This document shows, piece by piece, positions 3,049 to 45,545 of a DNA stretch of 49,177 bases. Under the pieces are notes generated by a model. That model saw only the letters and a list, made by a program, of their open reading frames with translations. It had not been told where the DNA came from and searched no databases. The translations under genes and the position numbers were made by a program. Position 1 is the stretch's first letter, and every line of letters begins with the position of its first letter. This DNA comes from Nitrospira sp. (lineage in GTDB: Bacteria; Nitrospirota; Nitrospiria; Nitrospirales; Nitrospiraceae): positions 1 through 49,177 of the forward strand of contig JAOUHJ010000020.1 of the NCBI GenBank assembly GCA_029865225.1. Reading direction: 5' to 3'.

Positions 3049-4329
3049 ATGGCCTGTGTGCGAAAGCGGCGCGGCAAATATGTGGTGGACTGGCGCGATG
3101 GGGCCGGAGTCCGACATTGGAAATCGTTCGACAAGAAAGGCGATGCCGACGCCTTCCGCGATCAAGTTGGACTAGAAGCCCGTCAACGAGTATCGCCGAC
3201 AATTCCGGCATCCAGTACCGTGACGGAGTACGCGGAGCACTGGAAGCGGCTCATCGAGCAGACGGTGAAACCACGCACGCTGGCCCGCTATAGCGAGATG
3301 ATGAGACTGCATGTTCTTCCGCAATTCGGGAAACTGCGGGTTCGGGAGTTGAACCGAGGACAGCTCAAACTCTTCTTAACGGAGAAGTTGTCCATCGGTC
3401 TTCAGAAGCGGACCGTGCGCAACATTCAGGCCGTGATACGCGTGATGCTCAACGCAGCGGTTGAGGATGGGCTGATTGCGACAAACCCTGCTGCGAAGCT
3501 GGGACGGGCGTTGAAGCTCACGGTCTCAAAGACAACGCGCCAAGAAGAGATCAAGGCGATGACCAAGACCCAGCGACAACACTTCCTGGCTACGGTCTTA
3601 GAACACGCACCGCGGTACTATCCCCTCTTCTTCGTATTAGCCGGAACCGGAGAGCGATTGGGGGAAGCCTTGGCGCTTCAAGATGGTGATCTCGACCTGA
3701 ACGCCCAGACGATCCGTATTGCCCGTGCCTTCTCGGAAGATGGAACCCTCGAGACTCCAAAGAGCGGCCATGGTCGAACTGTGGATCTTTCACAGGCCCT
3801 CACGGCGGTGCTCGCTCGCCATCTCAAGACTATGAAGCAAGATCGGTTGAAACATGGTTGGACAGATCAAACGCCCTGGCTGTTTGTAACGAAAAACGGG
3901 ACTCCGTTAGATCCTGCCAATGTGCGTCGTGCGATGGCCAGCGTGCTGAAGGAAGCCAAGCTTCCGCTCCACTTTACCCCCCATTGTCTCCGGCACACCT
4001 ACGCCTCGATCCTGCTTTCCGAGGGTGTCCCAGCCCCTTACGTTCAAGAGCAATTGGGACACGCGACAATTGAATTAACGGTGAGTACATATGGGAGATG
4101 GCTGAAGAAGAAAGCACCCGGTGCATTGGATCGCCTCGACGCACTACCGTCTCAATCAGAGAGGGCGGTAGCTCGTGGTAGCAAAGTGGTAGCAGAAGTG
4201 GCTTTTACACAGAATCCACAGACCGGATCGAGTCCGCAACTATCTGAAATCTCTTGGAAGATTATGGAGCCGGCGACCCGGATTGAACGGGCGACCTGCG
4301 GTTTACGAAACCGCTGCTCTACCAACTGA
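3049..4329 (+). CDS. Tyrosine recombinase (phage-type integrase)
   Basis: A 426-residue integrase. It has an N-terminal arm-binding domain (about 1-50), a SAM-like core-binding domain (about 60-170) and a catalytic domain with Arg in GTGERLGEAL, the HxxR box in HCLRHTYAS and the nucleophilic Tyr in VSTYGRW after LGHATIELT. The last 20 or so residues (EPATRIERATCGLRN) are translated from the antisense strand of tRNA-Thr and are probably dispensable. This places the attachment site at the tRNA 3' end and shows that the enzyme mobilised the toxin-antitoxin island to its left. Confidence 0.9.
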   Translation: MACVRKRRGKYVVDWRDGAGVRHWKSFDKKGDADAFRDQVGLEARQRVSPTIPASSTVTEYAEHWKRLIEQTVKPRTLARYSEMMRLHVLPQFGKLRVRELNRGQLKLFLTEKLSIGLQKRTVRNIQAVIRVMLNAAVEDGLIATNPAAKLGRALKLTVSKTTRQEEIKAMTKTQRQHFLATVLEHAPRYYPLFFVLAGTGERLGEALALQDGDLDLNAQTIRIARAFSEDGTLETPKSGHGRTVDLSQALTAVLARHLKTMKQDRLKHGWTDQTPWLFVTKNGTPLDPANVRRAMASVLKEAKLPLHFTPHCLRHTYASILLSEGVPAPYVQEQLGHATIELTVSTYGRWLKKKAPGALDRLDALPSQSERAVARGSKVVAEVAFTQNPQTGSSPQLSEISWKIMEPATRIERATCGLRNRCSTN

Positions 4330-6471: not shown

Positions 6472-6556
6472 GTTGTGGTTATACCCAATTCCTCAAAGCG
6501 TCACAACCGGTGAAGGCGCATTGACAGCCCCTTTTCCCCTCCGATATGGTCGAGCC

Positions 6557-7450
6557 ATGTCAGCCCCGGCCAATTCCTCATTTCCTGCCGCACCTGGTAT
6601 TCCCTGGTCTGCCCTTGCGCGATTGATTCGTTTACAGAATCAGACCGGCACCTATTTATTACTCCTACCTACCTTTTGGGCCCTTATTCTGGCAGCACGT
6701 GGATTCCCGCCACTCCATCTGCTCGCCATTTTTCTTGCAGGGTCGTTTTTGATGAGGAGCGCAGGCGTAATCTTGAACGATCTTGCAGATCAAGGCTTCG
6801 ATTGGCAAGTCACTCGCACTCGAGCGCGGCCGTTAGCGTCAGGTGAACTGACCCGTCGTCATGCCATCATCCTATTGACCATATTGTTGATGTTGGCGGC
6901 AGGTCTGTTGCTGCTGCTTTCACCTCTCGTTGCATGGCTTTCCCCGGTCGCAGTGTTTCTTGCAGCTCTCTATCCATACTGCAAGCGCTGGATCCATATC
7001 CCACAGGCCATGCTGGGCATCGCCTTCGGCTGGGGAACCGTCATGGCTTGGGCAGCGGTGCAAGGACAGCTCGATGCACCAGTATGGTGTCTCTTCGGAG
7101 CGACCGCCGCCTGGGCCGTCGCGTACGATACGATCTATGCCATTCAGGATCAGGAGGATGACCGACGCATCGGAGTGAAATCAGCCGCACTCTACTTCGG
7201 GGCGTCAATTCACCTCGGAGTAGGCCTGGCATTTGGCGTTATGATGGCGTTCTTGACCGCAGCAGGATGGCTGGCTGATCTCGGATGGCCGTATTATGCC
7301 GCACTCCTTGGAGTAATGATATTCTTCTACTTTCAAATTCGTCGGCTACAGCAGCCTCTGACGCCAGCGCATGCCTTTGAGATGTTTCGGGCGCACATTT
7401 GGGTCGGCGTCACGCTGCTTATTGGACTCCTTGGCGGCGTGCTGCGTTAA
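6557..7450 (+). CDS. ubiA: UbiA-family polyprenyltransferase
   Basis: An integral membrane prenyltransferase of about 297 residues with eight or nine hydrophobic helices. Both Asp-rich motifs are present: NDLADQGFDWQVTRTRARPL, then ASGELT, and YDTIYAIQDQEDDRRIGVKS. These bind Mg2+ and polyprenyl diphosphate. The best family match is 4-hydroxybenzoate polyprenyltransferase. In organisms that make menaquinone by the futalosine route, a UbiA homologue (MqnP) performs the prenylation, so the aromatic substrate is uncertain. ATG 6557 (MSAPANSS) was chosen over 6473, which would nearly abut the divergent gene. The 3' end overlaps the convergent cytochrome gene by 4 bp. Confidence 0.88.
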   Translation: MSAPANSSFPAAPGIPWSALARLIRLQNQTGTYLLLLPTFWALILAARGFPPLHLLAIFLAGSFLMRSAGVILNDLADQGFDWQVTRTRARPLASGELTRRHAIILLTILLMLAAGLLLLLSPLVAWLSPVAVFLAALYPYCKRWIHIPQAMLGIAFGWGTVMAWAAVQGQLDAPVWCLFGATAAWAVAYDTIYAIQDQEDDRRIGVKSAALYFGASIHLGVGLAFGVMMAFLTAAGWLADLGWPYYAALLGVMIFFYFQIRRLQQPLTPAHAFEMFRAHIWVGVTLLIGLLGGVLR

Positions 7451-8469
7451 GGAGTCTCTACCGGCTTTTCTTCCTCTGGCTCGGATTTCTCGGCGCGCAA
7501 CGTGGCAACATACATCGTCACGGCTTTTGCGTCTGCATCATTCAATCCTAGCGCCGGCATGCGTGTCGCTGAATCCATGGCCTGTGGATTTTTGAGCCAG
7601 CGATAGACCCAGGTCGCGTTCAACCGAAACCCAGCACGATCTAGAGCCGGGCCGATCTTCCCGCCCTCACCCTCGAGATTATGGCAACCATTGCATCCAT
7701 ATTTATCTTCGTACAATCGTTTCCCGCGAGCAATCAATGCAGCAGCTTCTGCTGGTTTGACCGTTAAGTCCGGTCTTGGGACACTGACGCCCCTGCCCGG
7801 CCTGGTCGAAAAGTTATTCAGGGCAACCTGAGCTGTATCGAGTTCCTTCTTGGCTACGCCCATGGCCTCCTGCTCGGCAGCGTAGGCGGATTCATCCACA
7901 TCAACATCTTTGTTCAGCTCTTCGCTCTTCCTCTCTGCTTCGTCACTGGCTTTCTTCTCTGCCTCCTCGTAGGCCTGTTTGGCTTGATCAAACTTCGTTT
8001 GTGCAGCCTTCAGTCCTTCATCGAGCGATGCCTTACGGGCTTCAACATTGAACTCCATCTTCATGCCATGCAGCGTGCGCACGTGGCCGACGATCGCCCA
8101 GATTTCATCCTCGGACAGGGTATACTTGAACGTCGGCATGGTCGGAACAGCGAAATCATCGTCCCCGATCTCATCGCCCTCTTCTTCGTTGGTGTTCAAC
8201 ATATCGCGTGAAATCGTGTCGAAAATTTCTTGGTCGGTGAACGTCCCCATTTCCGACTTATTGGACAAGTCCTTTGGCTTGGGATCAGGCATGAAGGACC
8301 AATTAAATCCCTCATTTTGCTTCCCGCTTGGGCCATGACAATCACTGCAGTAGTGGGTATATAGTTCGTGGCCTCGCTTTTCTTGCTCACTCGCGCATCC
8401 GCCGGCAATCAAAGCTCCTCCCAACACGCCAACCGCCAACCCAATAACACCCAGCCTTGCCGCCTTCAT
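7447..8469 (-). CDS. Diheme cytochrome c lipoprotein
   Basis: A 340-residue protein with a lipobox (AGGCA) and two c-type heme sites, CSDCH near the N-terminus and CNGCH near the C-terminus. Each is followed by a typical fold with a distal Met (MPTF; MPAL). The domains are joined by a charged Ala/Glu/Lys-rich coiled coil of about 100 residues (about 130-235). It is the last gene of the respiratory operon, 2 bp after the ethylbenzene-dehydrogenase-type subunit, and probably passes electrons between periplasmic partners. The start at 8469 (MKAARLG) gives a clean signal peptide; the longer frame to 8592 does not. Confidence 0.85.
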   Translation of the reverse strand: MKAARLGVIGLAVGVLGGALIAGGCASEQEKRGHELYTHYCSDCHGPSGKQNEGFNWSFMPDPKPKDLSNKSEMGTFTDQEIFDTISRDMLNTNEEEGDEIGDDDFAVPTMPTFKYTLSEDEIWAIVGHVRTLHGMKMEFNVEARKASLDEGLKAAQTKFDQAKQAYEEAEKKASDEAERKSEELNKDVDVDESAYAAEQEAMGVAKKELDTAQVALNNFSTRPGRGVSVPRPDLTVKPAEAAALIARGKRLYEDKYGCNGCHNLEGEGGKIGPALDRAGFRLNATWVYRWLKNPQAMDSATRMPALGLNDADAKAVTMYVATLRAEKSEPEEEKPVETP

Positions 8470-8471
8470 AC

Positions 8472-9299
8472 TCACTGCCCTTTCTTGAGTTTTCGGATCA
8501 GGACAAATTGAAATCCCAAAGCCAACGCTGCGGCAATCGCCGCATACATATAGCTCGAATAATCCGGCGGTGCATCGGCTCGGAAATACCACCAGGAAGA
8601 AACTGCTTTCTGCGAACCTTTTTCGACCAACTCACCTGCCCCATCCTTGCGACCATCCCACACCGCAAAAGCAATGCTGATGAATTCTCCTGGCGTGATC
8701 TGCACATCTTCGTCGGGATGATCGGTCGACAAGGGGCGGGAGAAAACAATTTTCCATGTGCCATTTGCGTAAGCAGCCTTTGCCTTCACATCCTGATGGG
8801 CTTGCGGCTTCAAAGTCCCAAAGCCCTTCGCACTCATATCAACGGCCTTGTCGTCCTTATGTTTCCAAAACCAGATATTGACCGGTCCGCCCTCAACCTG
8901 AAGCATCGGTTGCCCATGAGCGAAGTGGGCTTTCTTGTCTCCGACCATGAATTCCAATGCCGCCCCATCGTCAGGATCCTGAGTTGGATCGCTATACTCT
9001 AAAAGAAACGCCACCTGCTGATCATCGTGCAACGCGCGCACGATCACATCCTTAACAGTCACTTCTTGTATGCGGTCCGGCCAATGGACTTGCGGCGACA
9101 TCGGAAACGTCGCCGGGATCGCGCTCGTCCAAACGGCGGCATTTGGATCGTCTACGGGCAGCCCACCCGTGACAATCGCTGCCCTCACCGAAACGCTCTC
9201 CTGCGCAAAGCTGAGTGAGCCTCCCCCCATAACCAGAGCCGCGATCGTCGCCAACCCAGCCCACAGAACACGTTTCACCGCGTGATTCGCCGGTTTCAT
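8472..9299 (-). CDS. Ethylbenzene-dehydrogenase-type heme b subunit, membrane anchored
   Basis: A 275-residue protein with a signal peptide (cleavage near SLSFAQES), a periplasmic domain resembling the gamma subunit of DMSO-reductase-family enzymes (EB_dh type, binding one heme b), and a C-terminal transmembrane helix (about 248-268) with a basic tail. Marks include AAVWTSAIPATFPMSPQVHW and VAFLLEYSD, then the later segment ISIAFAVWDGRKDGAGELVE. Nitrite oxidoreductase gamma candidates in Nitrospira belong to this family, but no alpha or beta subunit gene is nearby, so here it more likely serves as an electron carrier in the operon's complex. Confidence 0.75.
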   Translation of the reverse strand: MKPANHAVKRVLWAGLATIAALVMGGGSLSFAQESVSVRAAIVTGGLPVDDPNAAVWTSAIPATFPMSPQVHWPDRIQEVTVKDVIVRALHDDQQVAFLLEYSDPTQDPDDGAALEFMVGDKKAHFAHGQPMLQVEGGPVNIWFWKHKDDKAVDMSAKGFGTLKPQAHQDVKAKAAYANGTWKIVFSRPLSTDHPDEDVQITPGEFISIAFAVWDGRKDGAGELVEKGSQKAVSSWWYFRADAPPDYSSYMYAAIAAALALGFQFVLIRKLKKGQ

Positions 9300-9354
9300 A
9301 CTGTCCTCATTCTCCGTATGCAACTTGACCCGTACACCTTGGCGACAGTGCCCA

Positions 9355-10071
9355 CTACTCCCACGTCCGTGGGGATTGATGCGCCCCATCATATTCACCC
9401 ATGATGATTTTCCAAATCCATTCATCAGGCAATTCCAACTCCCACCGCGGCATAGCGGATTTCCATGGCGCACCCTCGATCGGCAGGCCGACCCCGCCTT
9501 TTTTGATACGCCAGAACAAATAGCTCTCTTGCAGCATCGCGATCGTCGTCGGATCGGCAAAATTCGCAGGTGCCGGAATAAACCCCCGCGCGGCCGGTCC
9601 CTTTCCATCAAAGTTTCCACCGTGACAAGGCGAGCAAAAGGCCGCATAGAACCCCTTGCCTTGCATGATGTTCTCAGGTGTTTTTGGAACGGGATTTACA
9701 AGGCCTGTGTATTCACCCGGTGGTGCTGGATGAATCGTCCGGCTCTCCGTCGGAGGGAGATCGCTGGTTGCCGTGCTCCCATAGGTCTGCCACCCCACCA
9801 GCAGCGGAAACAGGATGAGAACCCCATATCGGAGGGCCTGCAGCCCGCCGATATTTTCACCGGTCAAGAACCGCTGGATCGGTCCCCAGAATGCGTCCTT
9901 CGATTCACCACTTAGCGTCTCATAGATCACGATGCCCGAGGCCGTCAGGATGAGATAGAGAAAAATTAAACTGGAGGGAAGAGGTGCCGATCCCGGGATA
10001 TAGGGCAGCACAAACTTCAGGAACACATACATCGCTACCATGAGTATGATCGGCTTCCCTAACGCTCCCAT
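9355..10071 (-). CDS. Membrane-bound monoheme cytochrome c
   Basis: A 238-residue protein. It has three hydrophobic helices in the first 100 residues and then a periplasmic cytochrome c domain with one CSPCH heme site (about residue 150) and FWRIKKGGVGLP downstream, as in cbb3-type or alternative complex III cytochromes. It lies 12 bp after the preceding cytochrome gene. A third cytochrome of the operon (18367-18852) has a related domain with YSDSVWFWRISEGVP, suggesting internal duplication. Confidence 0.85.
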   Translation of the reverse strand: MGALGKPIILMVAMYVFLKFVLPYIPGSAPLPSSLIFLYLILTASGIVIYETLSGESKDAFWGPIQRFLTGENIGGLQALRYGVLILFPLLVGWQTYGSTATSDLPPTESRTIHPAPPGEYTGLVNPVPKTPENIMQGKGFYAAFCSPCHGGNFDGKGPAARGFIPAPANFADPTTIAMLQESYLFWRIKKGGVGLPIEGAPWKSAMPRWELELPDEWIWKIIMGEYDGAHQSPRTWE

Positions 10072-10082
10072 AATTTTCCTCC

Positions 10083-10706
10083 CTAAGGCGTGTGAGCGTC
10101 TGCGACGAGGGCGGATCCAGCGGCTTTAACTGGCGCCGGCTGAGTCTGGCTCGGTATTTCGAGATCCGACACCTTGACGGAGATCGGTTCTCCGCTCATC
10201 TGTTGCAGAAACGCAATAACGGCTAATATTTCGTTCTTGGAAAGCCCGATCGGATCTTTGTCGATCGCCGGCATGGTCGCCGGGTATTCCTTTGGCACAC
10301 CCCCATGTCGGTAATCCTGATAGACGAAGGCTTGTGGATCCGTGAGGCTCTCATAGAGAAAGTCCTGGCTTAGCTTCGCACCGATACCCTTCAAATCCGG
10401 GCAGCGCGCGGACTCGCTTGGGCCGATGGAGTGGCAGAGAGCACATTGCCCTTTGCTGAAGAAGACGCTCTGCCCGATGGCCGCAATGTCGGTCGGTGTT
10501 TTGATGCTGGTGATGTCGACCTTCTCCTCTGCTGGCGGTAGAGACGCCATTTGAGGCACTGCGAGTGACATGAGTGAAAATAGCCCAAGAACGATAGCGA
10601 CGAACCCTGTGACGCGGAGAAACGTCGCTTTGATAAAGAGGAGGATCAGAACTCCGAACCCCACGATCCCCAGTGAGATCAATTGTAGTTGTGCAACTTC
10701 ACTCAT
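10083..10706 (-). CDS. Membrane-anchored monoheme cytochrome c
   Basis: A 207-residue protein. Two N-terminal transmembrane helices (about 7-25 and 30-52) are followed by a cytochrome c domain with the heme site CALCH and a candidate axial Met in PATMPAIDK. The C-terminus is Pro/Ala-rich. It sits between the second bd-like gene and the next cytochrome gene in the same orientation. Its role is inferred as electron relay on the periplasmic face. Confidence 0.85.
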   Translation of the reverse strand: MSEVAQLQLISLGIVGFGVLILLFIKATFLRVTGFVAIVLGLFSLMSLAVPQMASLPPAEEKVDITSIKTPTDIAAIGQSVFFSKGQCALCHSIGPSESARCPDLKGIGAKLSQDFLYESLTDPQAFVYQDYRHGGVPKEYPATMPAIDKDPIGLSKNEILAVIAFLQQMSGEPISVKVSDLEIPSQTQPAPVKAAGSALVADAHTP

Positions 10707-10789
10707 AGTCCCTCAAATATTAAATGCTGAGCATTGACCCTTCATTTGGTTCATTCGCTAAACTCAACACTCGCGATTCAAAACTGTAC

Positions 10790-12649
10790 TTATCCCTTCT
10801 GGTTTTCATCCGGAGCTCCTCCAGCCATCGCTGGGATGCCGTGCGGAAGCTCGCCCTTTCCCGTTCCACCTGCTGCCTTATACTTATCGCCCATGGTCGC
10901 CACCCAGAAAATAAATGCGACAAGGATGCAGAAGAAGAACGTACAGAACGCCATGATCAACGAGGCACTTCCAAGAGCCGGAGAGTATGCATAGGGCGAC
11001 GTATCCCTCATCACCCCATAGACATGCCAGTGAACTCGAGAGGACGACCTCGCATACCCCATCAACGTCATCAGGAGAATCACCATGACTGCGTTGAGGA
11101 CGAGAGAATAGCCGGCGCGAGGAGGCATACTGCCCCAAACCATTTCGGTCGTCGTCTTTGCGCTCTTCAGCAGCAGCGCCGTGAGTGGCGTGATCGTCAG
11201 AATGACAAAGATGACGATCAGGACCTGAGACGTGGAAAAGTAATTGATACGGACGATCGCCGGAACGAAGTAGCCCCACACACCAAGGACAATAACGGCA
11301 ATGCTGGCCAATACCAAGATCGCCCCCATCACGGCCTTCCCGAGCTTTGCCCATCCGGCTGTGTCTTGTTTCCCAGCCCGCCAATACATGACGAAACTCA
11401 TGAAGGTAATCAGAATCATGAGATTCGACACGGTCATTTTGGCCGACATGACGCCCAAGACACCGAGCAACGGGTGATGGGCTCCACCCATTTTTTGCGC
11501 CTCTTCAATGCTGGCCACAAGCGAGTGCGGTGTCATCCAGACGGCAAGACAGAACAGTAGACTGATCAGCATCCACAACATGGCCTTCCGATACTTCGCC
11601 TCTGATCCGGGAATCCGATAGGTAATGCCGAGCCAGAAATAGTAGTTCGACCCGAGGAACAGCACCCCGATCAACATGGCCTGGATAATAAACAGCCAGG
11701 AGAGAAAGCCTCCCATCAGCGTAATGCCCATCTGCTGATTGTACTGATAGATTTCCCGCATCAGCCAATAGCCTGCAAAGGGGAGGGCCAACAGACCGAA
11801 TACACCGATGAAATTCCCGACATAGCCCATCCAATCGTAGTGCTCCCGATCTTCTTGGCTCTTGACTGAGAGGTACCGGACCCCGGCATAGGCTCCGCAG
11901 ATATATCCCCCAAGCACCACGTTGGCGATCAGTCGGTGGATGTTGATCGGCCACCAGGTGGGATTCCATGTGGCAGCCCAGGCTCGCTCAAAAGCCGTCC
12001 CCTCCGAAATCACGACGGGACTTGACTGAAATGTGGCCCAGGCATTGGGCACGATCATGATGAATAAGGCAAAGAAATTCAGCAGAAACCCCAAAAAGAC
12101 ATGCAGCGTCTTTTTCCTTCCATGCTGCATGGCATCCCACCCATACCAATACAGATAGAGAGTGGCGGTTTCGAGGAGAAACAACAAGCAGTAGAGTAAA
12201 AATGAGGGGAAGAAGACATCGGTCAAATAATTCATGAGCTTGGGGTAGAACGCCACCAAGAGGAACAACAAGATTCCGCCGAACAGGGCGGTCGTGGCAT
12301 ACGCTGACGTGAGGAGCTTGGTAAACTCCTTGGCAAGCTTGTCGTAGCGTTTTTCCCCGCCCCTCCAGGCAATGACTTCGCAAAGCCATGCAAAGATCGG
12401 CACACCTAACACGAAGCCGGCGAGCAGAAGATGAAGTTGCGCGACGATCCAGACAAGGTTCCGACTACCGATATATGGAATATCACGATATTCCGTCGGA
12501 CCAGCACCCGTACCCTCGGCCGCAACACCGATGGAGGGAAGTGCGAGCCAGGCAGCCGCCAACAAGAGACTCGCAAGCCATCCTCCATGGCTTCTATCGG
12601 CTCGGAGAGATGGTTGAATCGTTTCCCTCTCTTGTTGTATGGCACTCAC
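10790..12649 (-). CDS. Cytochrome bd-like oxidase subunit I homologue (copy 2)
   Basis: A protein of about 619 residues with a signal peptide and 14 or so transmembrane helices. Early helices match CydA-type proteins: WIVAQLHLLLAGFVLGVPIF, with a His in the place of the heme ligand of CydA helix 1, and WWPINIHRLIANVVLGGYIC, with a second candidate heme His. The quinol-loop signature GRQPW of true CydA is missing (GYWLMREIYQYN there), and the protein is longer than CydA. Such bd-like proteins have been proposed as terminal oxidases in Nitrospira. The start is GTG 12649, preceded by GAGGTGAT; the longer frame overlaps the upstream gene. Confidence 0.8.
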   Translation of the reverse strand: MSAIQQERETIQPSLRADRSHGGWLASLLLAAAWLALPSIGVAAEGTGAGPTEYRDIPYIGSRNLVWIVAQLHLLLAGFVLGVPIFAWLCEVIAWRGGEKRYDKLAKEFTKLLTSAYATTALFGGILLFLLVAFYPKLMNYLTDVFFPSFLLYCLLFLLETATLYLYWYGWDAMQHGRKKTLHVFLGFLLNFFALFIMIVPNAWATFQSSPVVISEGTAFERAWAATWNPTWWPINIHRLIANVVLGGYICGAYAGVRYLSVKSQEDREHYDWMGYVGNFIGVFGLLALPFAGYWLMREIYQYNQQMGITLMGGFLSWLFIIQAMLIGVLFLGSNYYFWLGITYRIPGSEAKYRKAMLWMLISLLFCLAVWMTPHSLVASIEEAQKMGGAHHPLLGVLGVMSAKMTVSNLMILITFMSFVMYWRAGKQDTAGWAKLGKAVMGAILVLASIAVIVLGVWGYFVPAIVRINYFSTSQVLIVIFVILTITPLTALLLKSAKTTTEMVWGSMPPRAGYSLVLNAVMVILLMTLMGYARSSSRVHWHVYGVMRDTSPYAYSPALGSASLIMAFCTFFFCILVAFIFWVATMGDKYKAAGGTGKGELPHGIPAMAGGAPDENQKG

Positions 12650-12665
12650 CACATCACCTCGTAAG

Positions 12666-13667
12666 TTACGGTTTCGCCTTGGCAGGTGAATCCTCGGTTG
12701 TTTTTCCGCCGGCCTTCCCCTTGCTCTTTGCTTTTTGGTTTTTCTTGTCAGATTGTTGCTGCTCCAACGCATCGATTTGCGCCGTGAGGGACGCAACACG
12801 TTGCGCCGTGCTATTCAATGATTGACTAGGCTTGAATACCGGTTCGACCTCTACATCCGGCTTCTTACAGCACTCGTGCGGATGAGGAGTCGTCACCGGG
12901 AGGATGGTCCAAAACATCAGCGAACACACGACCCCCACGCCCGCTAAAGACGTCAAGAGCAGCCCTTGGTCTGCTGGCACCCGCATCAAGTCCCAGCGGG
13001 TAATGAGTCCTTGGTAGTTTTCGGAAGCTGGCCGGGACCCTTCCGCCATCCGTCGAATGATTTGGCCTAGGATCGATACTCCGATCAAGGAGAGAACGGC
13101 CAAGACAGCTGAAGAGATTGATCCCCAGATCGTTAATTCAAGACCGATGCGTTCCGCCACCGGCAGCCCGGTGTCGGTCAGATGCCGGAAAGCTTCCATC
13201 TCAGCCATTGAGTGAGATGCCGTGATGGCATTGTCCGTCACGAAACTCACGATCCACCAGAGGAGAGGGACAAAGAAGGCTCCAATAAGAGCGGATCTCC
13301 ACCAAATAGCCAGCCCAAGCCCATCAGGAGGTTCTTTTCGGAGTCGTTCAAGAAAGAACGTACGGGCAACCACCCCGAGCGCCCAAATATCCACGGGGAT
13401 AGAGAGCCAGAACAGGAACTCAAGGCCAATCCCTTCACCAAAGTGGGTTCCAAACAACGCCATGATGATGGGAATCGAAAAGACACTGACCGGGCTGATA
13501 AACAGCATGATGACGGCAAGCCCAAACCTGCCCTCAAACTGCACCAATCCCATCGTCAAGAGAAGCACGGCAAAAACCGCCTTCACAACCATGGCAGTCC
13601 AGCAGGCAGGCCATAAGATGCCGAACCCTATCCTTGTAGGTGACATCGATTCACGTTCTTCAGCCAT
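12666..13667 (-). CDS. Unknown polytopic membrane protein of the respiratory operon
   Basis: A 333-residue protein with six or seven hydrophobic helices and a Lys/Ala-rich charged tail (about 280-333). I do not recognise a family. After the last helix it has HPHECCKKP, a His/Cys cluster that could bind a metal or heme. It lies 18 bp downstream of cytochrome b and about 16 bp upstream of the second bd-like gene, so it is probably a structural or accessory subunit of that complex. Confidence 0.7.
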   Translation of the reverse strand: MAEERESMSPTRIGFGILWPACWTAMVVKAVFAVLLLTMGLVQFEGRFGLAVIMLFISPVSVFSIPIIMALFGTHFGEGIGLEFLFWLSIPVDIWALGVVARTFFLERLRKEPPDGLGLAIWWRSALIGAFFVPLLWWIVSFVTDNAITASHSMAEMEAFRHLTDTGLPVAERIGLELTIWGSISSAVLAVLSLIGVSILGQIIRRMAEGSRPASENYQGLITRWDLMRVPADQGLLLTSLAGVGVVCSLMFWTILPVTTPHPHECCKKPDVEVEPVFKPSQSLNSTAQRVASLTAQIDALEQQQSDKKNQKAKSKGKAGGKTTEDSPAKAKP

Positions 13668-13685
13668 AGCTAAGAGATACCAGAA

Positions 13686-14813
13686 TTAGTCTAAGAACTC
13701 TCGGTTAATCACCGAGGCCACCGTGAACAACACAATGACCACCATAATCGCGATCCAACTGATTAAAGCGATGGGCCGTTTAAAAATATTGCGTTCCGGA
13801 TCCTTGTCGAAAAATGGGAGTGCCACCAGCAAGATCATAAAGAGGACCGGTAGCGCAACGGCTCCCAAGAACTGCCCAAACTCCCCTGAAAAAATTTTCA
13901 ACCTCAGGAGTTGGAAGTAGAATAGGAAATACCATTCCGGTTCGGGATGATAGTCACCTGGATCAGGGGCAGCTTGGTCTAAGAGGACGACTGGTTCCCA
14001 CAGTGCCAGAACGCAGGTCCCGACGAAGACAAAGGCCATCCCGACCATATCCTTCCAAATTTGACGAGGGAAAAAGTAGTCTGTCTTGGCCTTAATCTCC
14101 TCCTTCGTACCACTGTACGGACCGGCTGGAGCTGCCACTCGAAACAAGAACAGATGCAGACCGGCTAAAGCCATGAGGGCTGCAGGAAGAATCATCACAT
14201 GAAGTACAAAGAAGCGGCTTAGCGTCATTTGCCCAGGAGTCGGTCCGCCTTTTAGAAATCGGGCGATGAAATCGCCAATGACTGGCGTCTTATCCAAAAT
14301 CTCGACACCCACAGTCGTGGCCCAGAACGCGCGTTGATCCCAGGGCAGCAGATACCCTGTAAAACCAAAGGTGATTACGATGCCAAATAATGCCAAACCC
14401 ACGAGCCAGAGCAATTCTCTTGGTTTCTTGTAGGCCCCCCACAAAAACACCTGCGACATGTGAGCCACCACACACACGACCATCGCACTGGACCCCCAAA
14501 AGTGATAGCTCAGCAAGAACCAGCCGTAGTCGACGTCATGAATGATGTATTGCGTGCTGTCATAGGCGTGGTCGGCGGTCGGGACATAATAGAACATCAG
14601 AAGGACACCGGTCAGCGCCTGCATCGCAAAGATGAACAAAAGAATCGAGCCGAAGACGTAGGCCCAACGAGAACCGCCAGGTATCGGCTCATTGAGCATC
14701 TTGGCCTGCATTTCCTTGAGGCCGACCCGTTCATCCAGAAAGGCGACGAGCTTTTCGATCGCGCTGGGCTGATGATCAGGAATCACGGCAGGAGAGGAAT
14801 GTTTGATGTCCAT
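13686..14813 (-). CDS. Cytochrome b (bc1/b6f type)
   Basis: A 375-residue membrane protein containing both the N-terminal heme-binding part and the C-terminal part of cytochrome b. Pairs of His ligands occur in two helices: SYHFWGSSAMVVCVVAHMSQ and FFVLHVMILP, then GLHLFLF. The Qo-site motif PEWY is present (YHPEPEWYFLFYF). It oxidises quinol together with the Rieske protein encoded 11 bp upstream. A single fused gene, rather than split b6 and subunit IV genes, is used here. Confidence 0.92.
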   Translation of the reverse strand: MDIKHSSPAVIPDHQPSAIEKLVAFLDERVGLKEMQAKMLNEPIPGGSRWAYVFGSILLFIFAMQALTGVLLMFYYVPTADHAYDSTQYIIHDVDYGWFLLSYHFWGSSAMVVCVVAHMSQVFLWGAYKKPRELLWLVGLALFGIVITFGFTGYLLPWDQRAFWATTVGVEILDKTPVIGDFIARFLKGGPTPGQMTLSRFFVLHVMILPAALMALAGLHLFLFRVAAPAGPYSGTKEEIKAKTDYFFPRQIWKDMVGMAFVFVGTCVLALWEPVVLLDQAAPDPGDYHPEPEWYFLFYFQLLRLKIFSGEFGQFLGAVALPVLFMILLVALPFFDKDPERNIFKRPIALISWIAIMVVIVLFTVASVINREFLD

Positions 14814-14824
14814 ATTTCTAGGTT

Positions 14825-15760
14825 TCAGACGATTCGTATTTGTGATTTCGTACCAGCCTTGAACTCCATGTCGATAATTTCCACCTCACCACTCGCCGAG
14901 ACGCGCACAGGCAAGGGATCAAGAGCACGCGGAGCAGGACCATCCAACACTTTTCCGGCCGCATTATAGATACTCAAGTGACAAGGACAGAGGAACACCG
15001 GTCCCAGCGCCTTATGGTTTCGCCATTTGAACGCACATCCAAGATGTGGGCACTTCCCTGAAAACGCGATAAAAGGGATCTCCTTCTTATTGGTCCAGAT
15101 GACATATCCCTTGGCGTCACGGAATTCCTCATCTTTCCCTTGATACACTTTTTCGAGGAGATCAGGAGTCGCACGCACAAGCCAGACGTTCTTCTCAACC
15201 TCATATTCAGGCATGTACGCTTCCTTCACCTTTTTCTTGTATTCGAACTGCACCCCAACGTCCTCATTCTTGATTTTGCTCACATTTCCAACAGCCAGCC
15301 ATTGGTTGTCAAATTCCGCATACATGGGCTTCATGAGAAAGCGAAGAATGGGATACGCGATGGGAAGTCCGATCAAGAATCCGATCACGTGGGTGAAATT
15401 CATGAAGAAGGTGCGCCGCTTGACACTCTTTTCCAAATCAGGGAGCGGCACCAACACTTCGCCCGGTGTGACATGAATATTGTCTTCGAGATGGGAGATT
15501 TCTACTTCGTGCGTAGTGACATAGTCGTCCCGCTTGAACGGCGGGAGTGCCAGAATCTCGCGCGAAGGCGACTTCAGATGTACAAGATCATCCGTGACAT
15601 CCTGCACCTGCGTCATGTCGATCTGGCGTTCGCCACTACCATTCATCGAGACCACAATATGGCTGATCTCATGAGAGAGTGGATCGAGCACGACCTTCGA
15701 GACTTCACCGATGTCGAGGTCGGTACATCGGACCTTGGATTTCAGCTTTGGTTGCAGCAT
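14825..15760 (-). CDS. PRC-barrel/Rieske iron-sulfur fusion protein
   Basis: A 311-residue protein. Residues 1-80 form a PRC-barrel-like domain (KVRCTDLDIGEVSKVVLDPL; HEISHIVVSMNG). One transmembrane helix lies at about 121-142, and a Rieske domain follows with CPHLGC (ligands Cys237, His239) and CPCH (Cys258, His261); Cys242 and Cys260 can form the usual disulfide. It is the electron acceptor of the bc-type complex. An N-terminal PRC barrel is not part of ordinary Rieske proteins, which start close to the anchor helix, so this is an unusual fusion. It is encoded 2 bp after the upstream cytochrome gene and 11 bp before cytochrome b. Confidence 0.88.
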   Translation of the reverse strand: MLQPKLKSKVRCTDLDIGEVSKVVLDPLSHEISHIVVSMNGSGERQIDMTQVQDVTDDLVHLKSPSREILALPPFKRDDYVTTHEVEISHLEDNIHVTPGEVLVPLPDLEKSVKRRTFFMNFTHVIGFLIGLPIAYPILRFLMKPMYAEFDNQWLAVGNVSKIKNEDVGVQFEYKKKVKEAYMPEYEVEKNVWLVRATPDLLEKVYQGKDEEFRDAKGYVIWTNKKEIPFIAFSGKCPHLGCAFKWRNHKALGPVFLCPCHLSIYNAAGKVLDGPAPRALDPLPVRVSASGEVEIIDMEFKAGTKSQIRIV

Positions 15761-15762
15761 GA

Positions 15763-16560
15763 CTATTGTTTGATAGGCTTCGGAGTGTTCACCGAGGTAT
15801 TCTTGAAGCTACCCAACCAGGTGGCGAGTGCCAACATTTCTTTGGGGTCCATGAGATCCTTGAACTTGTCGGGCATGACACCCTTCTTCCATTCCTTCTC
15901 AAATCCCTCCGCCATAAAACTCTTGGGGTTCGCAATCTTCTCCTGAATCTCCTCAACGGTCAGCAACGTACCGATGTTATCCAGTTCGGGACCTCGCTTC
16001 TTTCCACCTTCACCTCTGAGCTTGTGACAGTTGTAGCATTCCTGCAGCTGCCACTGCTCTTCTCCCACCTTCATCACATCCCCCGCACCACCGGATGCTG
16101 CTGATGGTTTTGCGTCTGCTGGCGGTGGCGCCGCCGAGGCCACGACGGCCTGACCTGTCCCCAACGTTTTTAGCCTCTCCTCAAGGGCCTTGACCTGTTC
16201 ATCCAGAGCTTTGGCACGGGCTATCAGTTCCTCTGCCTTCCCTTGCTGTGAGGCAGCTCTTTGCTTCTCCAAAAGCTTGTTGATTTTCTCCCGCTCGTCT
16301 TCCGGATCGAACTGAGGTAAGAGGGACGCGCCAGCGATGCAAACCGTGATCACGACGATCCAAAATGTCAGGACGGCAAAAAAAGACTTTCCGCCACTCA
16401 TTGTCTTGAGTGGCGGTGCATCCAACAGCATGAAGACCACAGCTCCAATAATCGCAAAGAGGCCCCAGAGTATCTGAAAATCTGATGGCACCTCTTGAGA
16501 ATGGGCAACCGCCATGACCGCCCCACCAACCACGAGCGCAATTATAAGTTTTTTAAACAC
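15763..16560 (-). CDS. Membrane-anchored cytochrome c with coiled coil
   Basis: A 265-residue protein starting at GTG 16560, preceded by GAGGGATC. It has three hydrophobic helices in the first 85 residues and then a Glu/Lys/Ala-rich coiled coil (about 86-135: INKLLEKQRAASQQGKAEEL). An Ala/Pro linker leads to a single cytochrome c domain with CYNCH (about 175) and a candidate axial Met in KKGVMPDKF. Its coiled coil recalls the one in the diheme lipoprotein at the end of the operon, so the two may dock. It lies just before the Rieske gene, in the place of the cytochrome c1-like partner. Confidence 0.85.
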   Translation of the reverse strand: MFKKLIIALVVGGAVMAVAHSQEVPSDFQILWGLFAIIGAVVFMLLDAPPLKTMSGGKSFFAVLTFWIVVITVCIAGASLLPQFDPEDEREKINKLLEKQRAASQQGKAEELIARAKALDEQVKALEERLKTLGTGQAVVASAAPPPADAKPSAASGGAGDVMKVGEEQWQLQECYNCHKLRGEGGKKRGPELDNIGTLLTVEEIQEKIANPKSFMAEGFEKEWKKGVMPDKFKDLMDPKEMLALATWLGSFKNTSVNTPKPIKQ

Positions 16561-16610
16561 GATCCCTCTTTCGGATTTTCGTGATCGTCAAATATTGATT
16601 ACGTACCAGC

Positions 16611-18323
16611 TCACTTTGCCTCTACAGGCACAGCACTCCCTCCAACCTCCCGCACCTTCGACACCAAGGGGCGGAGAGCCACCATGGCGGCCAGCGTCAC
16701 AATGATGAGGAAGCTGACGGTAATCCCGGTTATCCACCAAGCAGAATAGGAGAGGGTCGGTGTAAACGACTCGACGGTAAAGTCCGATACGAGACTGTAG
16801 GCATGGAAATACTTCTTTAGCAACGATCGAACCGCACCCATCAAACTCATGATCCACGTCGAAATAAATGCTAAGAAAATCAGGACAAATTGCGCCGCAA
16901 AATCGATTTTGCCCCAGTGAATGGTCCCCTGCTTGATGGTTCTGCTGTAGAGAACGTAATTGACGACGGTGACAAACACCAGCACGATGATGGCCGACAA
17001 CTTGGCCGGCATGGAGGCCAAATAGTCCAAGCCTTCCGGCAGGCTCAGCTCATCTGGCATATCCGTACCGGTGGCGACAAATCCCGCCGGGGTGAGCCAC
17101 ACGGCATCACTCACGAGCATCACGATAAACCCAATCTTAATGACGGTCCTCGCGGAGACGGTCAGGGGAACAAGCTTTGCCAACAGGAATGGAGACAAGA
17201 CTAAGGGCAGTAAGATGGCCAAGGACATCGGATCCGGGATCCAATAGACGTTCATAACCCACATCGTAACGGGAAGGATGGCAACCAAGACTATGGGAGC
17301 CAAGATCGTCATCCTGACGGTTTCGGCACCTTCGATTCGCTTTACGCTGAGCCAGCTATAATAATTAATCGCCAAGAAAAGTAGCCCGATCATCATCCCC
17401 TGCACCTCGAAAAACATGGAGAGCTGATCGGCCATCATGTAGGGACAAAACGAGAAATCGTAATCACACATTTCATAGGCCAGCAACAACCCTGTGAAGG
17501 GCTGTAGGAGTGACCCTCCCACCGCAATCCATATGGCGACGAAGCCCATCCAATCGTAGTAGGCTCGCTCCTCCTGGGTCTTGGAGCCCATATACATGTA
17601 GCTGGCGATCATACCGGCAATAAACCCGCCGAACGCTACGTTGCCGTCGATCCTATGCAGACTCAGAGGGAACCAACTTTGATTTGCAATTTTGTCCCAT
17701 AAGGTCGCAGCTGCGAGGAAATCCTGCGGTGAAACTCCCTCGGCCTTTGGAGGAGTGTTCATGAAAGATGTCGGACCATTGATCACAAAGAGAATCAGCA
17801 GGCACACCAGATTCAAGACGATGCCCAGCGCGATATGCCGCCCCTTCTTTTCACCCTTCCAAACATCCCAGGTGTAGAGATACGCGTACATCAGGATCGT
17901 CTCGATGATGAACAGTGCCGGATAGAGGACCGCGAACACGATATAAAATTGATTGATGAACCAGGTTGTGAATTCCGGATAGGCCGCAAGGAGGACAAAA
18001 ATGAAGAACCCTCCGGTCACAGCCGTCAAACTGAACAGGATGACCGTGACTTTGGTGATTTCCTTGGCCATACGATCGTAACGCGGGTCTTGTTTCCGAT
18101 ACCCGAGCCATTCAGCGATGACCACAAAAATCGGGGCGCCTAAGATGAACGCCGCGAACAAGATGTGAAGTTGCGCAACCACCCAGACAGCTGTCCGATT
18201 ACCCATGTAGGGGAGATTCACCGAGGAGGCCCCAAGCTCCTGGGCGTAGGCAGCGGGCGCAACGCACACGCAGAGCGCAAAAAGCGCAACAAGAGTCGGC
18301 AGATTGTGCCACAGTTTTTTCAC
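16611..18323 (-). CDS. Cytochrome bd-like oxidase subunit I homologue (copy 1)
   Basis: A 570-residue protein with a signal peptide (CVAPAAYAQE) and about 14 transmembrane helices. It is homologous to the protein at 10790-12649: both have (N/R)xxWxVAQLHxLxAxFxLGxPIF near the N-terminus, YYDWMG/HYDWMG in a central loop, and SLHRIDGNVAFGGF or NIHRLIANVVLGG with a His. The GRQPW quinol loop of classical CydA is absent, and no CydB partner is encoded nearby. The role is inferred as an electron-accepting or proton-pumping module of the operon's complex. Confidence 0.8.
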   Translation of the reverse strand: MKKLWHNLPTLVALFALCVCVAPAAYAQELGASSVNLPYMGNRTAVWVVAQLHILFAAFILGAPIFVVIAEWLGYRKQDPRYDRMAKEITKVTVILFSLTAVTGGFFIFVLLAAYPEFTTWFINQFYIVFAVLYPALFIIETILMYAYLYTWDVWKGEKKGRHIALGIVLNLVCLLILFVINGPTSFMNTPPKAEGVSPQDFLAAATLWDKIANQSWFPLSLHRIDGNVAFGGFIAGMIASYMYMGSKTQEERAYYDWMGFVAIWIAVGGSLLQPFTGLLLAYEMCDYDFSFCPYMMADQLSMFFEVQGMMIGLLFLAINYYSWLSVKRIEGAETVRMTILAPIVLVAILPVTMWVMNVYWIPDPMSLAILLPLVLSPFLLAKLVPLTVSARTVIKIGFIVMLVSDAVWLTPAGFVATGTDMPDELSLPEGLDYLASMPAKLSAIIVLVFVTVVNYVLYSRTIKQGTIHWGKIDFAAQFVLIFLAFISTWIMSLMGAVRSLLKKYFHAYSLVSDFTVESFTPTLSYSAWWITGITVSFLIIVTLAAMVALRPLVSKVREVGGSAVPVEAK

Positions 18324-18366
18324 GATACCTCGATGCCCCCTTACTTTCTGAAACTAGCCAAGAACG

Positions 18367-18852
18367 TCACTTAGCGCTTTGATCCACCCACTGCTTCTGT
18401 TCATCGCTCCACATCTTTCCAGGAAGCCCAAAATTCCTCTCGTACAGCACGAGTTTCCAGCGATCCTCCTCAGAGAGTTTACTCTTCCACCCCTTCATCT
18501 TCGTATTTGGTACCCCCTCGGAGATTCGCCAAAACCACACGGAGTCTGAATAAAGCTTCATCCGTTCCGGATTTCTGAAATCCGTCGCCCCAGCCTTCAC
18601 AGGCTTCCCGTCGTTCCCATGACAACTGCCACATTTCACGTCTGGATTCGCCTCACCCAGGTAGAGCTTTCGCCCCTCTTCCAATTTCTGGGCATCGCCC
18701 CACCACTCTGATGGCATATGCTTGTCGGCGTATTCTGCCGGAGCTGGGGGTGGTGGAACAATCGGTCCCTCCCCTTCGCCACCAGTGCAACCCACTAGCA
18801 ATCCACCAGTCATCACTAAAGCCATTCGAACTAGTTCCATTCTCGTAGCCAT
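18367..18852 (-). CDS. Monoheme cytochrome c lipoprotein
   Basis: A 161-residue protein with a lipobox (LLVGC, Cys22), a Pro-rich linker and one CGSCH heme site. The segment SVWFWRISEGVPNTKMKGWK supplies the probable axial Met and resembles the cytochrome at 9355-10071. It is the first gene of the respiratory operon. The start at 18852 has AGGAGGGA upstream, so it is likely well translated. A strong terminator separates it from the gene further upstream (19081-19647). Confidence 0.87.
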   Translation of the reverse strand: MATRMELVRMALVMTGGLLVGCTGGEGEGPIVPPPPAPAEYADKHMPSEWWGDAQKLEEGRKLYLGEANPDVKCGSCHGNDGKPVKAGATDFRNPERMKLYSDSVWFWRISEGVPNTKMKGWKSKLSEEDRWKLVLYERNFGLPGKMWSDEQKQWVDQSAK

Positions 18853-34085: not shown

Positions 34086-35711
34086 ATGACAATGGCATCT
34101 TCACCACCTAGTGCGGTCCATCCCACCCTTGCGATCCTCTTGGTCGTGGGAATATTCACGTTTCTAGCGGCAGTCTTCGCCGTAACCGGCAAACGTCCGG
34201 CCAAGCAGACAACATGGCTTGGGATCGGAACCCTCAAATGGCTCTCTGCACTAGGACTCGTGGTTTTAGCCGCCGTGTTGGTCACAGGATTGAACGCGGC
34301 ACATCCTTTGATGGATAAGAATTATGCGGCCGTATTCGTCACAACCTCCGGCTGGTTGCTCGTTGCAAAGCTGACGATTACCTGTCTCATTCTGGCCATT
34401 GCGTTGCGAATCCATATTGTCTCGTTGCCGACCATTGCCAACGATCCGGAGTCGGCGACAACTGCGAAGCGCAGCCTCCGACGATGGGTTGTCGTCGAAG
34501 GTATTCTTACGCTTCCGCTCCTATGGGCAGGACACATGGTGGCAAACGAGCACCCGCCAAATCATGCGGTCATCTACACCTGGCCATATCCCTTCCGCTT
34601 CTCCATCATGAACACATGGGGTATGGCCATGCTGGACGCCGTAATCGGCGTATGGGTGGCGATTACTCTGCTTATCATAGCAGGAGCCATCACATTACGC
34701 GCTTTAATGAAGGGCGGGCGATCAAGCTGGCGGTTTGGCCTACCTACCGTGCTGGTAGTGTTGGCGCTCGCCGTTGGCGCATACGCCCTGTCTATTAAGG
34801 CCTATCCAGAAACCTACCGTGATACCCCGGTCCCGTTTAAGTCAGAATCCGTCGCTCACGCCATGACCATCTTCGCCGAAAACTGTGTCCCCTGCCACGG
34901 ACATCAAGCCAAGGGTGACGGCATTTTGTCCAAAACCTTACCGAAAAAACCGATCGATTTACTCACGGAACCTCACGCGACCATGCATACTCCAGGAGAT
35001 TTTTTCCATTGGCTCACCAATGGCGTTCCCGGAACGGGCATGCCTGCATGGGGGGAAAAATTTTCTGACAAGGAGCGCTGGGACCTCGTCAATCTCATTC
35101 ATGCCATTAATCGCGGCTATCAAGCGCGCATTATGAATACTCGGATCCTCCCCAACCAACCATTTCTTGCACCTCCAGGCTTCTCCTATACCACCCATGA
35201 CGGAACCACCGGCAGGTTGAAAGACTTCCGTGGGGAAAAAGCCGTCCTGCTGGTCCTGTTTTCGTGGCCGGACTCGCGCGATCGACTCGATCAACTCCGG
35301 CTCGCCTACCCGTCGTTACGAGACCACAAGGCCGAGGTTTTGGCCGTACCACTGACGGAGCTCACCTCGCAGCAGATCGCCGATATTGGGAAGGACATCC
35401 CTTTCCCCTTGGTTGAAAAGGAGGCAGCCGAGATCGCCCGCACATATTCGCTGTTCCGCAGAACGATCTCTCATCCCGACCTGATGGGGCCGGCAACCGT
35501 CCCAAAGCATATGGAGTTCCTGTTCGACCGCTTCGGATACTTGCGGGCACGGTGGATCCCTGAAACCGATGCAGCCGACTGGAAAGACATCGAGTTCGTG
35601 ACTCAACAGGTGGATCAATTGAATCAGGAACAGGAAATCATGCCTCCACCTCCCGACTACGTGCAGGAGTCAGGACATGATATGCACATGATGGGCGGGA
35701 TGAAGATGTAA
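34086..35711 (+). CDS. CopD-like membrane/cytochrome c/thioredoxin-fold fusion
   Basis: A 541-residue protein in three parts. Residues 10-235 contain about six helices with His-bearing segments (LLWAGHMVANEHPPNH) like CopD-type copper or DUF2231-type membrane domains. Residues 255-345 form a cytochrome c domain with heme site CVPCH (267-271) and MPAW as probable axial Met. Residues 360-500 resemble a thioredoxin/redoxin fold (GRLKDFRGEKAVLLVLFSWP), but the CxxC Cys residues are absent (WPDSRD). The tail HDMHMMGGMKM could bind copper. GAGGAGG precedes the start. Inferred role: copper handling or redox sensing at the membrane. Confidence 0.7.
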   Translation: MTMASSPPSAVHPTLAILLVVGIFTFLAAVFAVTGKRPAKQTTWLGIGTLKWLSALGLVVLAAVLVTGLNAAHPLMDKNYAAVFVTTSGWLLVAKLTITCLILAIALRIHIVSLPTIANDPESATTAKRSLRRWVVVEGILTLPLLWAGHMVANEHPPNHAVIYTWPYPFRFSIMNTWGMAMLDAVIGVWVAITLLIIAGAITLRALMKGGRSSWRFGLPTVLVVLALAVGAYALSIKAYPETYRDTPVPFKSESVAHAMTIFAENCVPCHGHQAKGDGILSKTLPKKPIDLLTEPHATMHTPGDFFHWLTNGVPGTGMPAWGEKFSDKERWDLVNLIHAINRGYQARIMNTRILPNQPFLAPPGFSYTTHDGTTGRLKDFRGEKAVLLVLFSWPDSRDRLDQLRLAYPSLRDHKAEVLAVPLTELTSQQIADIGKDIPFPLVEKEAAEIARTYSLFRRTISHPDLMGPATVPKHMEFLFDRFGYLRARWIPETDAADWKDIEFVTQQVDQLNQEQEIMPPPPDYVQESGHDMHMMGGMKM

Positions 35712-43500: not shown

Positions 43501-43903
43501 CTTTGTTCCAAGAGTCACACGAAATACAAGACAAAGATATGTGACCCCTTTGCTTTCGCTCGTGTCATGATGTTGCTACAGGATCAAAGCATTGGTCACA
43601 TCTTGCAATCCAGTACTGCTGGGAGGAAAGCAGAAAAAGAGGCCTTTTGCTTCCTCCCCGAGTTGTCCCTTTCTACCTCACTGTTCTTCGGAAACCTGAC
43701 CACTTCCGCCCCACTCACACGACGTCGCCTATCCATCCTAAAATATTTGCCGCGGCTACGAGTCGGAACCTGCCCGCGCTGATTCATCCCCCCGGTCTCT
43801 TACAACACACTGATTGAGTTGGCGTTCTGCCTGCAAATCGCCAATGTACAGGTGAGGCATCGGTCAATTCCTATTCTGTGGGTACGAAGGGACCGGCGTT
43901 TAC
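43501..43903. other. Non-coding stretch with palindromic repeat
   Basis: It contains an imperfect inverted repeat (43532-43605). Short frames on both strands show no family resemblance. It looks like decayed mobile DNA. Confidence 0.45.
43532..43605. repeat. REP-like imperfect palindrome
   Basis: AAGATATGTGACC near the left end pairs with GGTCACATCTT near the right end, with a 2-base bulge; the spacer is about 47 bp. The shape recalls the hairpin repeats often associated with REP-associated (RAYT) transposases. No such transposase gene is in the window. Confidence 0.45.
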
Positions 43904-44161
43904 GTGCCGTTGACTGAGTGGTATCAGTTAACGGGTGCGGGCATGACAATTGATGTACTGGCCATGGTGGGAGCCGAAGTCAGATTCAGCCGAAGGTACG
44001 ACATCGTCGTAACGTATTCCAATCGGATGAGGTTGGAGGAAGGGAAGCTGGTGTGTGCGGCGAACACCAACTTCAGGACAATCTCAGGAAACGAGATAGT
44101 TATGGAGCGCGGCGACAAGTGTTTGGACACGCGTAAGAATCACGTGCCGGTGTTCATCTAG
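43904..44161 (+). CDS. Hypothetical short protein, 85 aa, possibly truncated
   Basis: Starts at GTG 43904. It has VPLTEWYQLTGAGMTIDVLA and an end rich in charged residues. The same frame is open for about 16 codons upstream, reading CGYEGTGVYVP, with no good start, so it may be the tail of a decayed gene. No family is recognised. It lies just before the IS5 remnant. Confidence 0.35.
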   Translation: MPLTEWYQLTGAGMTIDVLAMVGAEVRFSRRYDIVVTYSNRMRLEEGKLVCAANTNFRTISGNEIVMERGDKCLDTRKNHVPVFI

Positions 44162-44260
44162 GTATGCGTGCTGTGCCGGTCAGCGTACTCTTCAGCGTCC
44201 ACTATAGTTGGGCGGCCCGATTTTGCCGACCCCCTACGTTTTGCCTAGCCGCGCCAGAAC

Positions 44261-44275
44261 TAGGGTGTGTCATCA
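44261..44275. mobile_element. Probable IS5-type terminal inverted repeat
   Basis: TAGGGTGTGTCATCA overlaps the stop codon of the IS5-family transposase remnant. IS5/IS427-group elements commonly begin with GGGTGTGTCA-like ends. The opposite end is not found in the expected place, so the element is incomplete. Confidence 0.45.
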
Positions 44276-44617: not shown

Positions 44618-44846
44618 TTATTTCTATGCATTGACTATTGTTGCGTTCTTAGCCTTTGGCCTAACATGGCCCTTGCAATCGGACCGCTCGCTCCGCTCGC
44701 AGCCGCTGAAGGGCCTCATTCGGCGGTCCGGGGACTGGCCATGAGTTTCGTTCAGGATCCAGCGGGGAATCGCCACAGTCAGTCGAGAACAACGTTCGTC
44801 ATCGCGCGCAGATAAGGCAGATAAGAAGGGAGGTCGCGACAGTTCA

Positions 44847-45473: not shown

Positions 45474-45545
45474 GAGATCACGCAGAGCTCCAATGGGGCT
45501 ACGCCGACTGGTCGTCGCCACCCTAGATGAACGCAGGAGAACACG

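Follow-up and report, generated by a model that had tools for sequence, protein, structure and literature searches.

Nitrospira are major nitrite oxidizers, the comammox organisms included, and in the literature we found no biochemical proof of their oxygen reduction. Their complex IV has been described as a bd-superfamily enzyme that lacks a quinol site and is likely fed by cytochromes c, in organisms that hold only methyl-plastoquinones (PMC12324825). In most Nitrospirales, according to PMC12342949, the CydAA′ terminal oxidase is likely formed by an OR-N1 CydA together with a NIDE0901-like OR-N2 subunit. The OR-N1/OR-N2 pair is favored both there and in PMC10839748, the latter stating that confirmation is lacking; the OR-N classification itself is that of Murali et al. 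2021, as these two papers cite it. The closest described locus is a region of N. moscoviensis containing CIII_1, bd-like_1, bd-like_2, several cytochromes c, and alt_nxrC_1 (NITMOv2_0740), which is strongly transcribed during nitrite oxidation and for which a III-IV supercomplex was suggested (Mundinger et al. 2019, PMC6606698). Since anammox bacteria, which are anaerobic, also have bd-like homologues (PMC3578206), oxygen reduction does not follow from membership of the family alone.

Here we analyze a 49,177-nucleotide stretch of Nitrospira DNA (the window), which is one contig (C75) of a 4.12 Mb genome that is 99.98% complete. A first-pass annotation of the window had noted an operon with two bd-like proteins and had stated, correctly, that such proteins are proposed terminal oxidases of Nitrospira whose function remains open (PMC12342949, PMC10839748, PMC12324825). 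For the question of whether an enzyme of the bd superfamily can act as a cytochrome c oxidase, this operon is a natural test case.

Gene content of the operon

Eleven genes, all present as open reading frames, lie on the minus strand between 7447 and 18852 (Table 1), separated by gaps of 2 to 83 bases. Their 5′ to 3′ order is c161, bd1, cTM265, Rieske, cytochrome b, U333, bd2, c207, c238, EB_dh, c2x, where c161, cTM265, c207, c238, c2x, U333, bd1, and bd2 are names coined in the present analysis. Their products are a bc core, two proteins resembling CydA, five c-type cytochromes with six CxxCH motifs in all (six predicted c-type hemes), an EB_dh heme b protein, and the six-helix protein U333. 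The first-pass annotation had listed eleven genes on one strand with a bc core, two bd-like proteins, five c-type cytochromes, and an EB_dh protein; all are found in this interval, and the gene it left unnamed is U333. Families were assigned by Pfam matches over the cut-offs, the diheme c2x by its CxxCH motifs together with NCBIfam, with U333 as the exception. Three starts in the mechanical list of reading frames are over-long, and the most likely starts are GTG 12652 for bd2, ATG 9299 for EB_dh, and ATG 8469 for c2x. Chance reading frames or pseudogenes are ruled out by the conservation of gene order in 100 relatives. A 10-pair hairpin followed by AAAGTCTTTT (16391-16416, minus strand) falls within the coding sequence of cTM265, the gene between bd1 and Rieske.

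Table 1. Genes of the operon, in order of transcription, with the evidence for each assignment
Feature	Position	Strand	Evidence
c161, monoheme c-type cytochrome	18367..18852	-	Pfam Cytochrome_CBB3 3e-7; one CxxCH
bd1, first CydA-like protein	16611..18323	-	Pfam PF01654 (Cyt_bd_oxida_I) 1.2e-23; PDB 5doq 1e-12
cTM265, membrane-anchored monoheme c-type cytochrome	15763..16560	-	Pfam Cytochrom_C 4e-9; N-terminal hydrophobic segments
Rieske iron-sulfur protein	14825..15760	-	Pfam Rieske 2.5e-8
Cytochrome b	13686..14813	-	Pfam Cytochrome_B/b6 1.3e-49; best PDB match cytochrome b6 3e-47
U333, six-helix membrane protein, no family match	12666..13667	-	Conserved in 36-70 relatives
bd2, second CydA-like protein	10790..12652	-	Pfam PF01654 1.1e-12; CydA fold match Z about 20
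c207, membrane-anchored monoheme c-type cytochrome	10083..10706	-	Pfam Cytochrom_C 1.9e-7; one CxxCH
c238, membrane-anchored monoheme c-type cytochrome	9355..10071	-	Pfam Cytochrome_CBB3 1.9e-7; one CxxCH
EB_dh-type heme b protein (alt_NxrC_1)	8472..9299	-	Pfam EB_dh 1.2e-23; 7b04, 2ivf
c2x, diheme c-type cytochrome	7447..8469	-	Two CxxCH; cytochrome c models (NCBIfam) below cut-off

Conservation and published counterpart

The gene order is identical in 20 of 20 clusters from other Nitrospirales genomes, and 80 named loci, including N. moscoviensis NSP M-1 (L138) and isolates of N. defluvii (L148) and N. lenta (L132), show no deviation from it except truncation at contig ends; where c238 seems to be missing from some named loci, this is an artefact of an over-long EB_dh query that overlaps c238. 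The cluster is a standard respiratory operon of the Nitrospirales and is not new, and both the locus and the hypothesis attached to it are already in the literature. The N. moscoviensis region (PMC6606698) has the same genes in the same order as the window, a match that is based on gene content, order, and approximate map position. Its alt_nxrC_1 product, like the EB_dh protein of the window, has a signal peptide, one transmembrane helix, and a mass of 30.5 kDa, and the two regions differ only in sequence divergence, at about 54 to 83% identity per gene, with Ala in place of the WTPH His in bd1 of the window. What the present analysis adds is a two-module structure, an asymmetric conservation of His residues that points to bd2 as the likely site of catalysis, and an overlooked conserved subunit, U333.

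The bc core and U333

Cytochrome b carries four invariant heme His residues (104/118 and 205/220) at the b6-like spacings of 14 and 15, and direct reading of its sequence reveals a PEWY motif, which is the only recognizable quinone-site motif in the cluster. The Rieske protein has a complete and invariant set of cluster ligands (C237, H239, C258, and H261). In these features the bc core resembles cytochromes b6f and bc1. It differs from them in that there is no cytochrome c1 or f, a Pfam search of the cluster returning no cytochrome f, and the c partner is the one-heme cTM265 with its N-terminal helices; unlike cytochrome b6f, it has Val in place of the heme ci Cys (Cys35) despite the b6-like His spacing. 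At its N-terminus the Rieske protein is extended by about 100 residues, which give a PRC-barrel match below threshold (E 0.011). Alternative complex III was considered and rejected, as ten cluster proteins gave no ActB-like or NrfD-like match in Pfam; the diheme c2x was scanned with NCBIfam only.

U333 is the least understood part of the operon. It sits between cytochrome b and bd2, a position kept across the Nitrospirales, and has six hydrophobic segments, a conserved WDLxRVPxDQ motif, and a C-terminal HPHxCC motif whose second His and two Cys do not vary. Searches of Pfam, NCBIfam, PDB profiles, and folds returned no match, the fold search using a model of middling confidence (pLDDT 68).

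Two CydA relatives that differ in their histidines

Both bd1 and bd2 are CydA relatives by sequence (Pfam Cyt_bd_oxida_I and PDB profile matches), and they fall into two deeply separated clades. We assign bd1 as probably bd-like_1, the OR-N1 or CydA′ protein, and bd2 as likely bd-like_2, the NIDE0901-like OR-N2 protein and the oxygen-reducing subunit; the OR-N1 and OR-N2 labels are drawn from synteny and the published papers, as our tree was built without the original OR-N reference set. bd1 has about 12-13 membrane segments after an N-terminus that resembles a signal peptide. The equivalents of the canonical helix-I and helix-V heme-ligand His residues are invariant in both proteins, and bd2 retains one helix-III Glu. 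Beyond this the two proteins diverge. Nine His are invariant among 63 Nitrospirales bd2 sequences, including those in WMTPH, GGxHH, and RVHWH, whereas only four are invariant among 79 bd1 sequences. In Nitrospirales bd2 this additional set (WMTPH, GGxHH, and RVHWH) never varies, and bd1 has lost part of it; at the WTPH position, 42 of 100 bd1 sequences have Ala, Gly, Ser, Asn, or Arg instead of His, with Ala in bd1 of the window. Numbered along the 669-residue bd2 reading frame, the histidines of the set are H425, H441, H442, H590, and H592. Because this set is kept in bd2 and eroded in bd1, we infer that bd2 would hold the oxygen site, in which these His would have a putative role, with bd1 as its partner.

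In canonical CydA, the GRQPW motif lies near the high-spin hemes and the quinol ligands are on the Q-loop. GRQPW is a C-terminal motif, at about residues 379-383 of 448 in 5doq, and it is preceded by E378, the Glu ligand of a high-spin heme. Over the GWxxxExGRQPW region bd2 reads GYARSSSRVHWH and bd1 reads GAVRSLLKKYFH, so that the place of GRQPW is taken by the derived form RVHWH in bd2 and by KKYFH in bd1. The claim of a missing GRQPW quinol loop thus holds for the motif, which is altered in both proteins, but GRQPW is not the quinol-binding loop proper. In the sequence alignments, the bd-like proteins show no match to CydA across the Q-loop itself. The E378 position is Ser in bd2, which counts against oxygen reduction.

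An AlphaFold2 model of bd2, built from an alignment of a limited set of loci, is of low confidence (pLDDT 55, pTM 0.59). Over residues 59-592 it aligns to solved CydA chains at a Z of about 20 over about 335 residues, compared with a Z of 13-16 for alternative complex III subunits. The model thus suggests a CydA fold over the whole length of bd2; it is good enough for a fold match and not for cofactor geometry. The pair resembles canonical CydAB in the CydA fold and in the helix-I and helix-V His of both proteins, and differs from it in the lack of CydB, the changed GWxxxExGRQPW region, the extra membrane helices, and the extra His set of bd2. A canonical bd oxidase (qOR) can be ruled out by the lack of CydB and of GWxxxExGRQPW. 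The closer resemblance is to the OR-N CydAA′ oxygen reductases, which likewise comprise a CydA-superfamily pair without CydB (PF01654 matches both proteins here and PF02322 none in the genome), are encoded next to c-type cytochromes, and as a family are published as missing the quinol ligands. In one other Nitrospira genome, an extra bd-like copy is split over adjacent frames of 327 and 298 residues (G050:C5:52504-54113), as a result of a recent frameshift or as a two-part gene.

Candidate electron carriers

Each of the operon cytochromes c contains invariant Met residues that are candidates for the distal heme ligand. c161 is a probable lipoprotein, as judged from an invariant C22 at a lipobox-like site, and M98 and M119 are also invariant in its 75 sequences; c2x is likewise a probable lipoprotein, with an invariant lipobox-like C66. 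The EB_dh protein, which has a signal peptide and a C-terminal transmembrane helix, matches NXR-C (7b04, 2e-15) and the γ subunit of EBDH (2ivf, 1e-13), and its M248, K343, and K347 are invariant.

Candidate oxygen reductases in the source genome and the order

The source genome encodes three CydA-like proteins and one cytochrome b. The assertion that CydB is absent extends from the operon to the whole genome, in which PF02322 has no match (control positive in 10 of 14); a heme-copper oxidase is absent as well, with no PF00115 (COX1) match (control positive in 8 of 14). Searches of the genome for AMO and AOX also returned no match, but their controls were silent too and absence is not established for these. 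The third CydA-like copy lies on contig C26 (L066:3279-5162) and groups with the bd-like_4 type of relatives; this contig breaks off short of the site that in relatives holds bd-like_3 and alt_NxrC_2, and the assembly yielded no such copy. A plasmid collection gave only distant CydA matches.

Across 146 Nitrospirales genomes, CydB passes the cut-off in 73 and a strong COX1 match (below 1e-30) is present in 16, about fifteen more passing the COX1 cut-off weakly; 70 genomes have neither CydB nor a strong COX1 match. About 144 of the 146 have a bd1 ortholog, and in a phylum survey both bd1 and bd2 occur in each of 25 Nitrospirales genomes. Of the families tested, the OR-N pair alone remains as a recognized oxygen reductase candidate in those 70 genomes, about half of the total, and in that of the window.

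Proposed function and alternatives

We consider it fairly probable that the operon encodes a complex III together with a cytochrome c-fed OR-N oxygen reductase, formed by a bd1-bd2 pair in which bd2 is catalytic. Cytochrome b, the Rieske protein, and cTM265 would carry electrons between cytochrome c and a quinone of the plastoquinone type, with the bc core running forward with low-potential donors and in reverse when nitrite supplies the electrons. Instead of a CydA-CydB pair, bd1 and bd2 probably form a CydA-CydA′ pair, with bd2 most likely carrying the oxygen-reducing site and bd1 most likely acting as a structural or electron-transfer partner. Electrons would reach bd2 from c207, c238, the diheme c2x, and the NxrC-like EB_dh protein; this heme b protein could itself be supplied by nitrite oxidoreductase. 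Against an oxidase function stands the fact that neither a purified OR-N enzyme nor a heme analysis was found in the literature.

The first-pass annotation had offered a supercomplex or a quinone-linked enzyme distinct from both bc1 and bd oxidase. The first of these is plausible, as a III-IV supercomplex that was already proposed (PMC6606698); a separate quinone-linked enzyme made of the bd-like proteins is unsupported, since the one recognizable quinone-site motif, PEWY, belongs to cytochrome b, and the quinol ligands are missing according to published analyses of the family.

The arrangement of homologous genes outside the order bears on how these parts belong together. There, in the stretches read (L056-L065), a bd2-c207-c238-EB_dh set occurs without recognizable bc genes, so that a bd2-type module without a bc core exists in other Nitrospirota. 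At one locus (L063:2018-11123) a bd2-type protein and two c cytochromes, one of which matches c238 by homology, are joined to the α, β, and δ components of a type II DMSO reductase and an EB_dh γ subunit. At another (L074:4020-11813) homologues of c161, bd1, and cTM265 adjoin a different molybdopterin oxidoreductase, an Fe-S protein, and a TorD-like chaperone, and this stretch has no bc genes. As the modules stand apart outside the order, the most fitting view of the operon is that two electron-transfer modules were joined in the lineage of the Nitrospirales.

Both loci lend some weight to the alternative that the bd-like proteins are quinone-dependent and not a cytochrome c-fed terminal oxidase, since in each of them the bd-type protein and its cytochromes accompany a molybdopterin enzyme. 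In anammox bacteria, too, bd-like proteins are conserved with NXR, and reverse electron flow has been suggested (PMC3578206, PMC6606698). However, the bd copy of the first locus has lost the WMTPH and HH histidines (it reads WATPR and GGIHP) and may thus differ from bd2 in function; residues that bind quinol are reported missing in the bd-like family; and on this reading no recognized terminal oxidase would remain in the source genome or in about half of the order. We regard quinone dependence as doubtful.

The same modularity raises the question of whether bd1 belongs to the oxidase at all. bd2 could act alone, as a homodimer or as a monomer with c207 and c238, with bd1 an accessory subunit of the bc complex. 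bd1 is indeed encoded in the bc half, between c161 and cTM265, and bd2 forms a separate module with c207 and c238; the two proteins differ in how far they keep the His set; and bd2-type proteins occur as single copies without bd1 in complete genomes outside the order. In our tree, most of these single-copy proteins are nearer to bd-like_3/4 and do not clearly group with Nitrospirales bd2, and the single-copy relatives that we considered as a test of obligate pairing (G083, G062, G099, and G111), not being clear bd2 orthologs, decide nothing. Canonical bd oxidases are heterodimers, which speaks for a pair. So do the nearly universal presence of bd1 in the Nitrospirales surveyed, the joint occurrence of both copies in the phylum survey, and the preference for an OR-N1/OR-N2 pair in the two published analyses (PMC12342949, PMC10839748). 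An oxidase formed by bd2 alone thus appears improbable to us.

Returning to a bd1-bd2 oxidase fed by cytochrome c, a more far-reaching version of it, which we regard as a long shot, is an obligate bc-bd assembly in which bd1 would be an internal electron bridge without oxygen chemistry and U333, through its HPHxCC motif, a new metal-binding subunit docking the oxidase to cytochrome b. If this were true, the electrons of nitrite would be split within one complex, to oxygen via bd2 and to the quinone pool via cytochrome b, giving a coupled reverse electron transport of a kind that, to our knowledge, is known from no III-IV supercomplex.

Surroundings of the operon

A UbiA-type 4-hydroxybenzoate polyprenyltransferase gene (6473-7450, plus strand; NCBIfam over the cut-off) converges on the end of the operon, so that an operon that uses quinone has a gene of quinone biosynthesis as its neighbor. 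Further along the plus strand, the product of 34086-35711 combines membrane helices at its N-terminus with a monoheme cytochrome c domain, and its CcoP-like matches are all below threshold. A phage-type integrase (3049-4329, plus strand) lies near the left end of the window, and a TIR-like protein (44847-45473, recognized by eye only) stands near an ATPase-like frame in the region 41880-46741 of the plus strand; the integrase and the TIR-like/ATPase-like region are possible defence or mobile islands.
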